From Novosphingobium arvoryzae (GTDB lineage Bacteria; Pseudomonadota; Alphaproteobacteria; Sphingomonadales; Sphingomonadaceae): DNA of 64,000 nucleotides. Under the pieces are notes generated by a model. The model worked only from the letters and a program-made list of their open reading frames with translations. It made no database searches and had not been told where the DNA came from. The translations under genes and the position numbers were made by a program. Below are positions 256-11,615 of this stretch, piece by piece (the stretch's first letter is position 1; every line of letters begins with the position of its first letter). The stretch covers positions 62,001-126,000 of the forward strand of contig NZ_BMZD01000004.1 of the NCBI RefSeq assembly GCF_014652615.1, written 5' to 3'.

Positions 256-288
256 AAAAAGGGCGCCCGGATCGCTCCGGACGCCCTT
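256..288 (-). terminator. Rho-independent terminator of glnA
   Basis: On the minus strand, a 10-bp stem (261-270 pairs with 277-286, one G-U pair) closes a 6-base loop. A run of five T residues (256-260 on the plus strand reads A) follows. It lies about 30 bases past the glnA stop. Confidence 0.8.
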
Positions 289-317
289 CCTGATACCCTC
301 TGACCGGGTCGCAGAGA

Positions 318-4913: not shown

Positions 4914-6291
4914 TCAGATGTGGGGCGGGCGGTTCGCCGAAGGGCCTTCCGCAATCATGCGGGAGATAAATGCCTCCATCCCGTTCGACAAGGCGCTGTG
5001 GCGACAGGACATCACCGCATCGAAAGCCCATGTCGCCATGCTGGGCGCGCAGGGAATCGTTTCGGCCGAGGATGCCGCCACGATCACCACCGGACTGGAC
5101 CGGGTCGCCGCCGAGTATGAGGCGCACGGGGTTCCCGAAAACTGGGACCTTGAAGACATTCACATGACCACCGAGAGCCGGCTGGCCGAACTGATCGGCC
5201 CGGTCGCGGGGCGCCTGCACACCGCGCGCAGCCGCAACGATCAGGTGGCAACCGATTTCCGCCTGTGGGTGCGCGAGGCGATGGAGCAGGCCGACGCAGG
5301 GCTGCACGCGCTGCAAGTCGCGCTAGTCACCCGCGCGGACGAACATGCGGATAGCATCATGCCCGGTTTTACCCACCTGCAGACCGCGCAGCCGGTTACG
5401 CTGGGGCATCACCTGATGGCCTATTACGAGATGGCCGCGCGCGACCGGTCGCGCTTTGCCGATGCGCGCGCGCGGATGAACCAGTCGCCGCTGGGGGCGG
5501 CGGCGCTGGCGGGCACCGGCTTCCCGATTGATCGCCATGCCACGGCCGCCGCGCTGGGGTTTGACGCGCCGACGCGCAACAGCCTCGATTCCGTATCGGA
5601 CCGCGATTTCGCACTCGATTACCTGATGGCCGCGGCCCAGACCGCGCTGCACCTGTCGCGGCTGGCGGAGGAATTCATCATCTGGGCCAGCCAACCGTTC
5701 GGCTTTGTGCGTCTGCCGGACAGCCTCTCCACCGGCAGCTCGATCATGCCGCAGAAGAAGAACCCCGACGCGGCGGAACTGGTGCGCGGTCATGCCGGGC
5801 GGATTGTGGGGTGCCTGACCAGCCTGATGATCACCATGAAGGGCCTGCCACTGGCCTATTCGAAGGACATGCAGGACGACAAGCCGCCGGTGTTCGAAGC
5901 CGCCGGGCTGCTGACACTGTGTATCGCCGCCATGACCGGGATGGTCGAAGCCACGACATTCCGCACCGACCGGATGCGCGCCGCGGCGGAGCTCGGCTAT
6001 GCCACCGCCACCGATCTGGCCGACTGGCTGGTGCGGCAGGCGGGCATCCCCTTCCGCGAGGCGCACCACATCACCGGCAGCGCGGTGAAGCTGGCGGAAA
6101 GCCGGGGCATCGCGCTGGACCAGTTGCCGCTGGCCGACTTGCAGGCCATCGACGCGCGGGTGGATGAGCGGGTCTATGCCGCGCTCTCGGTCGAGGCGTC
6201 GGTCGCCGCGCGCGCTAGTTATGGCGGAACCGCGCCGGAACAGGTAAAGGCCCGCGTGGCCGAAGCGCGCGTGGCGCTGGGCCTGGAGTGA
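4879..6291 (+). CDS. argH: Argininosuccinate lyase
   Basis: Splits argininosuccinate into arginine and fumarate in the last arginine step. The hallmark near the middle is [19 protein letters not shown], the fumarase/aspartase-superfamily signature with the catalytic serine loop. [15 protein letters not shown] and [12 protein letters not shown] are also present. I chose the TTG at 4879 because GAGG lies nine bases upstream and because SNQMWGGRF, normally internal, is in frame. The ATG at 4918 (MWGGRF) is the alternative. The stop overlaps the region of the next gene, lptM-like. Confidence 0.95.
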
Positions 6292-7829: not shown

Positions 7830-8597
7830 ATGCACAGCCTGCCGCTGCTTCATCGCCTGAACGGCCAGCCGGTGATCGTGCTGGGCGAAGGCGAGGCGGC
7901 AACGGCCAAGGCACGGCTGCTGGAACGGGCTGGCGCGCGGATCGTGGGAGAGGATAACCCACACGCGCGGCTGGCCTTCGTGGCGCTGGACGATCCCGAT
8001 GCGGTGGTCGCGCGGCTCAAGGCGCGCGGCCTGCTGGTCAATGCGGTCGACCGTCCGGACTTGTGCGATTTTACCGTGCCCAGCCTGCTGGAACGCGGGC
8101 CGGTGCTGGTGGCGGTGGGCACGGGCGGGGCGTCCGCCGGCCTTGCCAAGGCGCTGCGGCTGCGGCTGGAAACGCTGTTGCCGGCATCGCTGGGCGAACT
8201 TGCCAACGGCCTGGCGACAGGGCGTGCCAGGCTGCGCGCGCGCTGGCCGGATGCGGGGCAACGTCGGCGTGCGCTGGATGCCGCATTGGCGGAAGGGGGC
8301 GCGCTGGATCCCTTGGCGGCAGGCAGTGCTGCGGCGCTGGAGGCATGGCTGGACGGCGCGCAACCGGGTGAGGGCGGGGTGCGGGAATTCACTGTCCGCT
8401 CGGACGATCCCGATGACCTGACGTTGCGTCAGGCCCGCTGGCTGGGCAGCGCAGATGTGGTCGCGCATGAACCCGGGACAGCGGAGGCGATCCTGATCCG
8501 CGCGCGCGCCGATGCCGTGCGGGTGGAACTGCCCCCTGGCGCGGCAGCGCCGGATGGGTCCGGTCTGACCGTGGTTATTCGCCGTCAATCGGGCTGA
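7830..8597 (+). CDS. Siroheme synthase N-terminal type (precorrin-2 dehydrogenase) with degenerate tail
   Basis: 255 residues. The first 110 or so form a Rossmann domain starting VIVLGEGEAATAKARLLERA, as in Met8/CysG-N, which oxidises precorrin-2 and inserts iron. NAVDRPDLCDFTVPS is the catalytic segment with the conserved Asp. Residues from about 198 (DDPDDLTLRQARWLGSADVV) look like a fragment of the CysG C-terminal methyltransferase, without its SAM-binding remainder. A separate SUMT would therefore be required. The 3' end overlaps the convergent thioesterase gene by 23 bases. Confidence 0.85.
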   Translation: MHSLPLLHRLNGQPVIVLGEGEAATAKARLLERAGARIVGEDNPHARLAFVALDDPDAVVARLKARGLLVNAVDRPDLCDFTVPSLLERGPVLVAVGTGGASAGLAKALRLRLETLLPASLGELANGLATGRARLRARWPDAGQRRRALDAALAEGGALDPLAAGSAAALEAWLDGAQPGEGGVREFTVRSDDPDDLTLRQARWLGSADVVAHEPGTAEAILIRARADAVRVELPPGAAAPDGSGLTVVIRRQSG

Positions 8598-8985
8598 GCA
8601 GGATCTTCATCTGCGCCAGCGCGATCGGCCTCTTGCGGTCGTCCTGCCAGGCTTCGGCATTGACCAGCGCCACGCGCCGGCCCGCGCGGGTGACGTTGCC
8701 CAGCGCATAAGTGACCTGCTGGGTCCCGCCGCGCATGAATTCGACCTGCACGTTGACGGGCTTCAGCCGCATATTTTCGCCGCGCCGCTCCATTTCGGCG
8801 CGCAGGGCGGCCACGGCGGCCATTTCCATCAGCCCGCTCATCGCGCCGCCATGGAGAAAGCCGGGGCGGCCCATCATCCGGTCGGTGAAGTCCACCGCCA
8901 GCACGGGCATGCCATCTTCCTCGCGGTCGATGTGGATGCCCAGCGCGGTGGCATAGGGCGGCAGGGTCGATCCGATCGTGCTCAC
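8575..8985 (-). CDS. PaaI-type hotdog thioesterase (second of pair)
   Basis: 136 residues starting at a GTG whose bases overlap the stop of the upstream thioesterase gene (GTGA). The hotdog helix motif GFLHGGAMSGLMEMA, with the HGG turn, marks a PaaI/YbgC-like acyl-CoA thioesterase. Substrate cannot be told. Two adjacent paralogues suggest a heteromer or a duplicated function. Its 3' end overlaps the siroheme synthase gene by 23 bases on the opposite strand. Confidence 0.88.
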   Translation of the reverse strand: MSTIGSTLPPYATALGIHIDREEDGMPVLAVDFTDRMMGRPGFLHGGAMSGLMEMAAVAALRAEMERRGENMRLKPVNVQVEFMRGGTQQVTYALGNVTRAGRRVALVNAEAWQDDRKRPIALAQMKILLSPIDGE

Positions 8986-9458
8986 AGGTAGGTTCCGTGC
9001 GTTGCCATGAACGTGCCGGTGACGTGCGCCACCGGGTCTTCCGGATCGCCATCGTGGGCGATGCCGCGAATGAACGAGATCGTGCGCGTCAGCTTGTAGC
9101 ATTCGCCGCGCCCGATCACGGTGCGCCCCGGCACGGCGGCCCGCATGTAGTCCACCCGCAAGTCCAGCGTGGCATGCGGCACGAACTTGCCGCACAGCGC
9201 CCAGACCGACATCGATGTCGCATTGTCCATCAGGCTGATGATCGGACCGGATGCCAGCACGCCGGTTTCCGCCACGCCGACCAGTTCCTCGCGCCAGGGC
9301 AGGGCCAGCTCCATCCAGCCGGTGCCGTGTGCGTGATACGTCAGGCCCAGCCAGCCACCGTGGCCGTGTCGGGTCATCAGCTTGGCCGCGCGGGCCGGAT
9401 CGAACACGCTGCCCGGCGGCAGATCGTGCAGACTCTTGGGTGCGGACACTTCACTCAT
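8982..9458 (-). CDS. PaaI-type hotdog thioesterase (first of pair)
   Basis: 158 residues. The hotdog core includes GVLASGPIISLMDNATSMSV and LRVDYMRAAVPGRTV, typical of the PaaI thioesterase family. The usual HGG turn is replaced by ASG, so activity or substrate may differ from its neighbour. Translationally coupled to the following thioesterase. It is divergent from the peptide gene at 9576, with the AT-rich shared upstream region 9486-9510. Confidence 0.88.
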   Translation of the reverse strand: MSEVSAPKSLHDLPPGSVFDPARAAKLMTRHGHGGWLGLTYHAHGTGWMELALPWREELVGVAETGVLASGPIISLMDNATSMSVWALCGKFVPHATLDLRVDYMRAAVPGRTVIGRGECYKLTRTISFIRGIAHDGDPEDPVAHVTGTFMATHGTYL

Positions 9459-9510: not shown

Positions 9511-9575
9511 GCGGGCTGACCCGGCGATGGCTGCAAGGGCGAGGCGCAGTGTCTCGCGATTGCAGGGGAATGACC

Positions 9576-9728
9576 ATGAACCTTCCGAAAATCGACGTGT
9601 CCGCGCTGCCCGATCTGGATCACCTGATCGGCGTGTTCGGCAGCATCGCCAGTCCGCTGGCACCGGCCCAGGCTGACGATTCGGTCATCATTGCGATGGT
9701 GTTCGTCTGTGAAATCCTGATGCCCTGA
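9576..9728 (+). CDS. 50-residue peptide, candidate modified-peptide precursor
   Basis: A short gene with a good ribosome binding site (AGGGG, 9564-9568, seven bases before the ATG at 9576). An ATG at 9570 in the same frame is too close to it. The product starts MNLPKIDVSALPDLDHLIGV, with an amphipathic leader-like half. An Ala/Pro hinge (SPLAPAQADD) follows, then a hydrophobic end DSVIIAMVFVCEILMP with Cys45. This leader-hinge-core look, and two downstream genes that include a putative oxygenase, suggest a ribosomally made, modified peptide. I do not recognise the family. It could also be a small membrane-associated protein. Confidence 0.65.
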   Translation: MNLPKIDVSALPDLDHLIGVFGSIASPLAPAQADDSVIIAMVFVCEILMP

Positions 9729-9744: not shown

Positions 9745-10722
9745 ATGCACATTCGACCGGAACTGGCGGCGCTGCGGAGTGATGACACTCCGCAGCGCCA
9801 CGCCCAGGCCCGCCTGATCGCGGCGGTGGATGGCTGGCGGGCGACCCCGCCGGTCGCCGCCGCCACGGCCGAACTGGAGCGCTTCGGGCAGGGGCGCGCG
9901 CTTGACGAGTTGCCCCTGCTTTCGGCGCTGTTTGCCGCGGATGATCCCTCCGCTCAGCAGTTCACCAGTGCGCTGGTGAACGTGCTGGTCGCAGAGCTGG
10001 GGGCTGATCCGCTGGGACAGGTGCCTATGCGCCACTTCAGCGATGGCCTGCTGGCCTCGCTGGTGCTGGCGCGGCGGGGCAGCGCGGTGCTGGCACTCCA
10101 GGCCATCGACGGTGCGGCGCTGGCCCGCCGGCCAGAGCCGCTGTCGGCCAGCTTCGCAGCGACAGAGACCTGGGAGCACGTGCTGGCCGGTTCCGCCACG
10201 GTGGAGCGGGTGCGGATCGAGCAAGTTTTGCCCGACCGGGCGGTGCTGCAGCGAGATTCTCGGCAACTGAGCGCGGGAACGACCGGCCACCGCTATTGTG
10301 CGGAAGAGGCCCAGGTTCTGCGTCAGGTGCCGGGGACGATGGTGGTGCTGAAGCTGCAGCGCACCCTCGATCCCAGCGCGCCAACGCGGGAATACCGGAT
10401 GTCTGACGGGGTCTTGCTTCATCAGGCCGCGGGCAGTCCGCGCGAAAGCCGGCTGGAACTGACCGCGGCGCTGCTGGGGCGGATGGGGCGCAGGGATGCC
10501 GCCCCGCTGCTTGCCGCCATGGCGGAGGAACAGGGCGGGGTCGGCCTGCGCTGGCAGGCGCTGCGCGAATGCCTGGGGCTGGATACCGCGCTGGGGTTCG
10601 CTGCGCTGCGGACCGTGGCCCAGCGCGGCGACGATCCGCTTGCCGCACCGGCGGGTGCCCTGCTGGCGCAGTTGCTTGAACAATACCCTGAACTGGCCGG
10701 AGTAGCCCGATGCCCCGCGTAA
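9745..10722 (+). CDS. Uncharacterised protein with C-terminal HEAT-like helices
   Basis: 325 residues, no signal peptide or membrane segment. The N-terminal half is helical. A beta-rich middle (about 134-222) contains ETWEHVLAGS and EEAQVLRQVPGTMVVLKLQRTL. The end (about 235-315) looks like HEAT/ARM repeat helices. I do not recognise the family. It begins 16 bases after the peptide gene and its last 13 bases overlap the cupin-fold gene, so the three are almost certainly one transcript. Possible roles are leader-peptide binding or scaffolding of the modifying enzyme; both are inference. Confidence 0.8.
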   Translation: MHIRPELAALRSDDTPQRHAQARLIAAVDGWRATPPVAAATAELERFGQGRALDELPLLSALFAADDPSAQQFTSALVNVLVAELGADPLGQVPMRHFSDGLLASLVLARRGSAVLALQAIDGAALARRPEPLSASFAATETWEHVLAGSATVERVRIEQVLPDRAVLQRDSRQLSAGTTGHRYCAEEAQVLRQVPGTMVVLKLQRTLDPSAPTREYRMSDGVLLHQAAGSPRESRLELTAALLGRMGRRDAAPLLAAMAEEQGGVGLRWQALRECLGLDTALGFAALRTVAQRGDDPLAAPAGALLAQLLEQYPELAGVARCPA

Positions 10723-11615
10723 TCGAACTGGAAGATGCCCAAACCGCCACGCTCGCAGAGACGGTGGAGGCCATCGCGGGCAGCGGCTTCGATCCGCACG
10801 ATGATGCCAGTCTGAGCCACGCCGCACTGTGGTTGCGGCGGCTGGGCAATGATCGGGATTTCCTTGGCGATATCCTGATCCGCGAATTGGCCCAGCGCCA
10901 CCGCGATGACGTGCTGGACAATGCCTATGGGCCGCAGGTGGTCATGCTGGCGCCGCCATGCGGGCAGTTCTTCATTCGCGCGAACCTGTGGCCTTCGCCC
11001 GATGAGCACATGGTGCGGGCGAGTGGCGGGCCATCGTTTGCCTATGGTTTGCCGCACGATCACAACTTTTCGTTTCTGACGCTGGGCTATTTCGGGCCGG
11101 GGTATTGGAGCGATTATTACGAGTTCGATTACGCGGAAGTGGCCGGTTTCCGGGGTGAATCGGTGCCGTCATTGCGGTTTGTCGAGCGGGCGCGGCTCGA
11201 GCCGGGGAAGCTGATGCTCTATCGCGCCCACGTGGATGTCCATGCGCAACTGCCCGCCGATGCGCTGTCCGTTTCCCTGAACGTGATGCATACCAGCGGG
11301 GCACAGGGCTGGCTTGACCAGTACCGCTTCGACCTTGAGCGGCGCGAGATCGGCGCCATCATTTCACCGGGGCCGAGCGAGGTGTTCCTGAAACTTGCGG
11401 TGGGCCTGGGCAGCGACGAGGCGCTGGACCTGGCGCACCGGTTCGCCCGCCGCCACCCCAGCGACCGGCTGCGGCTGGCCGCATGGGATGCACTGGCCGG
11501 GCGCGAGGAAGCACCCGAGGCGCGCGATGCCCTGTGGCGCGAGGCGGAAGGGGCCGGAAGCCTGCTGGTGGCGAAGGAAGCGCAGGGGCGGCGGGCCGAA
11601 CTGGCCGGGGCTTAG
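10710..11615 (+). CDS. Cupin-fold putative metal-dependent oxygenase
   Basis: 301 residues. The core (about 85-210) reads like a double-stranded beta-helix enzyme. His116-Asp117-His118 lie in the turn [14 protein letters not shown], and acidic residues are at 138-140. A second motif, [16 protein letters not shown], has His174 and His178. An HxH-plus-distal-His arrangement suits Fe(II)-dependent hydroxylases or dioxygenases. A helical tail resembles the HEAT part of the upstream partner. It starts inside the preceding gene, implying coupled translation, and ends with a 4-base overlap on convergent ruvX. The substrate may be the 50-residue peptide at 9576. Confidence 0.75.

Follow-up and report, generated by a model that had tools for sequence, protein, structure and literature searches.

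A conserved short peptide gene of sphingomonad bacteria linked to two paralogous cupin genes: a candidate RiPP-like operon

Very short open reading frames ahead of larger genes raise the question of whether a genuine peptide is encoded and, if so, whether it is a substrate of the neighbouring gene products. Such a case was found in a 64,000-nucleotide stretch of the Novosphingobium arvoryzae genome (hereafter the window). The original prediction, made from the nucleotide sequence alone, placed an uncatalogued gene of 50 residues at positions 9576-9728 and considered it, together with the two genes that follow, a candidate for an undescribed RiPP-type or small signalling system.

Identification and conservation of the peptide gene

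In silico analysis revealed an open reading frame of 50 codons exactly at 9576..9728 of the forward strand, here designated P, which encodes the putative precursor peptide MNLPKIDVSALPDLDHLIGVFGSIASPLAPAQADDSVIIAMVFVCEILMP. The anticipated ribosome site is also present; as read from the sequence, a Shine-Dalgarno-like AGGGG occupies 9564..9568 (+), 7 nt ahead of the ATG. A second in-frame ATG is located at 9570, and the alignment of homologues favours the ATG at 9576 as the start of P. No model for the peptide was found in Pfam or NCBIfam.

A whole-genome search of 200 genomes of the family returned 53 matches of P at E <= 4e-4, and homologues occur in about a quarter of the sampled family genomes. 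No internal stop was found in any of the 53 matches, the frame being open in all. Weak matches beyond E about 1e-3 (e.g. at loci L068 and L070) were rejected as chance. The consensus of a 38-member alignment is MxLPKIDLSxLPDLDxxTGxFGSLSDxxxAxxDDRIVIxMVYxYExxPP, with the N-terminal block LPKID..LPDLD..TG.FGS as its most conserved part. Compared to the closest relative (L071), the window gene differs in 12 codons, 9 of them silently; under a null in which three quarters of the changes are expected to be replacements, the binomial probability of three or fewer replacements among 12 codon changes is 0.0004. In the first 23 codons of 77 sequences, codon positions 1, 2 and 3 show 5.5, 2.7 and 10.8 differences per pair, respectively. 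As judged from these substitution patterns, protein-level constraint acts on P. The open reading frame is a real gene, conserved in many sphingomonad bacteria and absent from the standard catalogues. Two outcomes that would have refuted the original prediction, namely a frame unconserved in genomes keeping both downstream genes or a frame shift in close relatives, were not met.

The stop codon of P lies 16 nt ahead of the start of the following gene, a distance that would suit a translated leader or attenuator frame merely coupling translation to that gene. The amino acid sequence is conserved over most of P and silent changes are in excess, which speaks against such a role; on the comparative data this explanation is largely refuted, and hardly any credence is left to it.

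The peptide had been described as an amphipathic half, a hinge and a hydrophobic end with one cysteine. The alignments bear out the layout, with a conserved N-terminal block, a variable hinge and a Val/Ile-rich end. The putative leader part (9576..9644, +; residues 1-23, MNLPKIDVSALPDLDHLIGVFGS) is the best conserved block, and its leader role is inferred; the hinge (9645..9677, +; residues 24-34) varies in both sequence and length; the putative core (9678..9725, +; residues 35-50, DSVIIAMVFVCEILMP) is rich in Val and Ile. The weight placed on the cysteine had to be given up. It is residue 45 of the window peptide, where Tyr is found in 70 of 73 aligned homologues, including L071, and Cys in the window alone; the cysteine is, by this alignment, a local Tyr-to-Cys substitution in the window and not a conserved feature. 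A Tyr followed by Asp or Glu near the C-terminus is near invariant in the lineage.

Organization of the operon

The genes designated A (9745..10722, +) and B (10710..11615, +) follow P successively, B overlapping A by 13 nt. Matches of P had been expected to precede homologues of these two genes, and this linkage was found. Among 40 fetched flanks, a convincing P was always accompanied by A and B directly downstream, except at the decayed locus L065 and at L029, where only the end of B is present. In loci fetched independently via B, all from Novosphingobium and Erythrobacteraceae, A precedes B and P directly precedes A in 78 out of 80. The two exceptions are L114, which starts inside A at a contig edge, and L122, which possesses neither P nor the N-terminal half of A.

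Upstream of the operon, in divergent orientation, lie two neighbouring genes for hotdog-fold thioesterases (4HBT, TIGR00369; window positions 8575-8988 and 8982-9458, both on the minus strand). This pair stays upstream of the operon in most genera, and a ruvX-like gene is found downstream in many loci. The locus is thereby syntenic across genera, which indicates vertical retention of the operon, a resident of many genomes in Novosphingobium and Erythrobacteraceae. No adjacent transporter or protease gene was found at the window operon.

At L065 (10065-10229) a P with a degraded leader occurs without A or B, and the 3 kb locus L029 keeps P followed only by the C-terminal part of B; both are apparent relics, and in the case of L065 P decays where A and B have been lost. 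This decay and the hydrophobic C-terminus of P could be accommodated by a toxin-antitoxin-like system, in which a hydrophobic toxic peptide is held harmless by A-B. Such a system is considered very improbable: at about 10-12 residues, the hydrophobic stretch is rather short to cross a membrane, PADLOC gave no model or match for P, A or B, and the genes keep a stable syntenic chromosomal place in whole clades.

Proteins encoded by genes A and B

Gene B encodes a putative iron-dependent oxidative maturase of 301 aa. Its AlphaFold model (pLDDT 89) comprises a helical N-terminus, a cupin barrel and a HEAT-like helical region (residues 222-300; 11373..11609, +). The best solved matches of the model are thiol dioxygenases (8vni, 4qma, 4wvz, 4tlf, CDO, PCO and ADO), with Z 13.4, rmsd 3.9 and 171 aligned positions for 8vni in VIA-align, and the alignment with these enzymes covers residues 11-219. 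The relationship also appears in hhalign, where a diverse B alignment matches CDO_I members with E 6e-5 (local) and 1.2e-6 (global). No Pfam or NCBIfam family model was matched above threshold, a sub-threshold HEAT_2 being the only match, and the B profile retrieved no relative when searched against PDB sequences.

The first two putative metal-ligand histidines, within H116-D117-H118 (11055..11063, +), align to the HDH motif of CDO_I, and the third, H178 (11241..11243, +), to the third CDO_I histidine. In the column census H116 and H118 are invariant (78/78 close and 16/16 diverse B members), and H178 is present in 78/78 close and 15/16 diverse members. A Ser-His-Tyr catalytic triad is common to the CDO family (PMC10966181). 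At the site of this triad, located by profile alignment and column census at S189-L-N191-V-M193 (11274..11288, +), B contains S189, N191 instead of His and Met or Leu at position 193 instead of Tyr, so the triad is not met. By predicted fold, profile and ligands, B is a member of the thiol-dioxygenase clan without a defining thiol-dioxygenase feature, the triad. A B copy at L201 (7805-8716), with the third ligand His replaced by Arg (RDVRSL), is probably decaying; it lies in genome G305, for which an in-frame TAG in B was reported.

The 325-aa product of gene A, a putative peptide-binding partner, begins with helices, continues with a cupin barrel in which metal histidines are not conserved, and ends in a HEAT-like C-terminus. 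Its AlphaFold model (pLDDT 93) is organised like that of B and finds the same structural neighbours (Z about 10). The HEAT-like helical region (residues 232-319; 10438..10701, +) is supported by the model and by Pfam HEAT_2 matches in homologues; its R269-W270 motif (window A numbering) is near-invariant and is kept in most members even at 15-18% identity. No family was found in A by Pfam or NCBIfam, and neither A nor B matched the DUF692 domain. The diverse A and B profiles (A6 and A7) align colinearly over 291 columns with hhalign E 3e-11; the hhalign comparison of the close alignments (A4 vs A5) was not significant, and only the diverse ones revealed the paralogy. On this profile evidence, A and B are colinear paralogues. 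Since the column census detected no histidine conserved across the A family, A is read, from sequence and model, as a catalytically dead paralogue of B. The idea that the two downstream genes may modify the peptide gained ground from this paralogous pair, in which one member has an intact oxygenase-type metal site; a modifying role is inferred from fold and metal site, and modification itself has not been shown.

Distant gene pairs and accessory genes

Of 198 genomes from the order, 56 carry B. Elsewhere in the phylum it is rare (2 outside the family among 398 genomes), and one gammaproteobacterial order contains it in 5 of 296 genomes. No relative was found in phages, and viral contigs yielded only one. 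A match on a Vibrio plasmid (H2, 22.7% identity) was too weak to be used.

The short gene adjoins A and B also in the remote pairs. In these distant loci (Sphingomonas-type and gammaproteobacterial), an upstream ORF of 33-57 aa has a hydrophobic, mostly Val/Ile-rich end, and in the Sphingomonas-type loci an IDIxxLPEL-type motif is frequently retained in it as well. The C-terminal ends are AGVFGVIVVAVVIFL (L207), ELGIVITIAVVIL (L208), DPVFVIPIIIILTKTL (L209), STIVMIVVAIGPKIK (L217), GGPICVVMIVIPA (L233), DPVFVIPIIIVA (L234), GIPLIVAAVIVLYSSPAN (L235) and DPALIASIIAIIIVTA (L236). P of the remote loci is too diverged for the profile, and only the plan of a short ORF ahead of A with a hydrophobic end remains. 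A score for the Val/Ile end exceeded every control window (264-297 per locus) in 9 of 10 testable loci, the exception being L222; L236 was too short for control windows and was left out. The combined p-value of 9e-13 is overstated, as the score was devised after part of the peptides had been seen. L222 (genome G889) contains an A-B pair without a recognisable P, and a Cupin_8/JmjC-like protein (E 4e-41) is encoded ahead of the pair at 5073-6020.

Exporter genes accompany the operon at L217 and L235, and none is found next to the window operon. On the Alteromonas stellipolaris plasmid pASTE61-200 (L217), genes for a Yip1-like protein, HlyD, a MacB-type ATPase and a MacB/FtsX permease are followed by two tiny unannotated ORFs and then by A, B, an ABC ATPase and an ABC-2 permease. 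The second tiny ORF of this plasmid (L217:6836-6961, MKIPKLKNEAKHAVGTSVDETVGAACFGIGMAVGVYLNQLR), beside the Val/Ile-ended one, could be a second precursor. At L235 B is directly followed by genes for an ABC ATPase and for a presumed permease without a Pfam match, and a Yip1-like protein gene is present at L233.

Three observations make a substrate the simplest reading of P: its evolution is the fastest, a leader-like block is retained, and its end carries a feature common to nearly all loci. The main rival to this reading leaves P unmodified: it would belong permanently to a complex with A and B as a small third subunit, insert its hydrophobic end into the A-B interface and serve as an activator or regulatory microprotein, while B acts on a small molecule. 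The linkage of P is indeed no looser than that of A and B themselves, the operon has been inherited vertically in a syntenic setting, the paralogues A and B are an obvious heteromer candidate, and the C-terminal Tyr-Asp/Glu hardly varies in the lineage. However, B remains 27-46% identical across the A-B pairs while P diverges until only a short leader-like motif or the Val/Ile end can be recognised, a pattern typical of a substrate and unusual for a subunit, and the exporter genes at L217 and L235 also count against a permanent subunit. The subunit explanation is thus judged unlikely, though it deserves to be kept in mind.

An OmpR/PhoB-type DNA-binding gene directly follows B in the same orientation in nine Sphingomonas-type loci (L192, L193, L196-L200, L203 and L206). 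Three of the encoded proteins were scanned and gave a Trans_reg_C match without a Response_reg match, and their receiver-like part may be atypical. P, modified or not, might accordingly be sensed by a linked atypical response regulator, with the operon reporting oxygen or another B-dependent state in the manner of ADO and plant PCO, oxygen sensors of the clan to which B belongs. Nevertheless, neither the window nor its close relatives have such a regulator beside the operon, and ADO/PCO act on an N-terminal Cys, which P does not have; signalling of this kind appears improbable, more so than the subunit role.

Proposed function and comparison with known systems

The reading of P-A-B as a compact RiPP-like operon, with P as the precursor, A as a peptide-guiding dead paralogue and B as an oxidative maturase, is held to be rather probable, with considerable reservation. 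The leader would comprise residues 1-23 of P and be joined through the variable hinge to a core, which the Val/Ile-rich C-terminus would provide. The metal-free A may bind the leader and dock the peptide, a step that is only inferred. B, with its three-histidine iron-type site and no Ser-His-Tyr triad, would then catalyse an O2-dependent oxidation of a residue within that hydrophobic core; the reaction and its target are likewise inferences, the likeliest targets in this lineage being the near-invariant Tyr before Asp/Glu, or a Val or Ile. The product might subsequently be exported or act as an intracellular signal, and neither modification nor cleavage nor export of P has been shown. The proposal is weakened by the absence of any known modified product and by the synteny across genera, which suits a resident function better than a mobile bacteriocin. 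In Pfam and NCBIfam, A and B matched none of the families known for RiPP enzymes or recognition elements, a search that would miss a diverged element. Such domains are common but not universal, and many RiPP classes do without one.

Several characterized systems resemble parts of the locus. The thiol dioxygenases (cysteine dioxygenase, 3-mercaptopropionate dioxygenase, mercaptosuccinate dioxygenase and ADO/PCO) have the cupin fold and the HDH...H three-histidine metal site in common with B. In contrast to them, B lacks the Ser-His-Tyr triad, continues into HEAT-like helices at its C-terminal side and is accompanied by a dead paralogue encoded next to it. Of these enzymes, ADO/PCO take peptides as substrates, whose termini they oxidise. 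A conserved Cys is missing from P, the putative substrate, and a small-molecule thiol substrate of B is not excluded. In crocagin biosynthesis the duplicated pair CgnB/CgnE guides the precursor peptide, the second copy having repeatedly lost its metal site (PMC10070186). A and B, a presumably active copy with a dead one at its side, resemble this arrangement, but CgnB/CgnE descend from zinc aminopeptidases and not from cupins (PMC10070186), and they were rejected as homologues, leaving an analogy only. Daptides have a short hydrophobic core, and MpaB recognises the leader and recruits the oxidising MpaC (PMC10036551); the enzymes differ from A and B, and P does not share the Thr that is conserved at the C-terminus of daptides. 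MNIO (DUF692) systems combine an iron oxidase and a partner protein acting on a short precursor, and a cupin-fold RiPP hydroxylase, PbsQ, is known (PMC12257519). A and B differ from these systems in having no DUF692 match, and PbsQ has its relatives among JmjC proteins, B in the cysteine-dioxygenase clan.

The broader proposal is an undescribed RiPP class of Alpha- and Gammaproteobacteria, in which a triad-less cupin of the cysteine-dioxygenase clan, with its dead paralogue, acts as an O2-dependent peptide maturase on Val/Ile-rich cores, the product being exported in some lineages and linked to an atypical OmpR-type regulator in others. It is put forward tentatively, its chances falling somewhat short of even. 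A search of the open-access literature found no description of the system, and an earlier description is not excluded. The original prediction of an undescribed RiPP-type or small signalling candidate gains support from the linkage, and the chemistry remains unproven.

Conclusions

If the proposal is true, the operon would represent a new type of peptide-modifying enzyme from an oxygenase clan so far known for thiol oxidation. A short Val/Ile-ended ORF followed by A and B would provide a signature for mining a peptide family missed by family databases. Many Novosphingobium and Erythrobacteraceae genomes harbour the operon, so that culturable strains are open to gene deletion as a test of its role.
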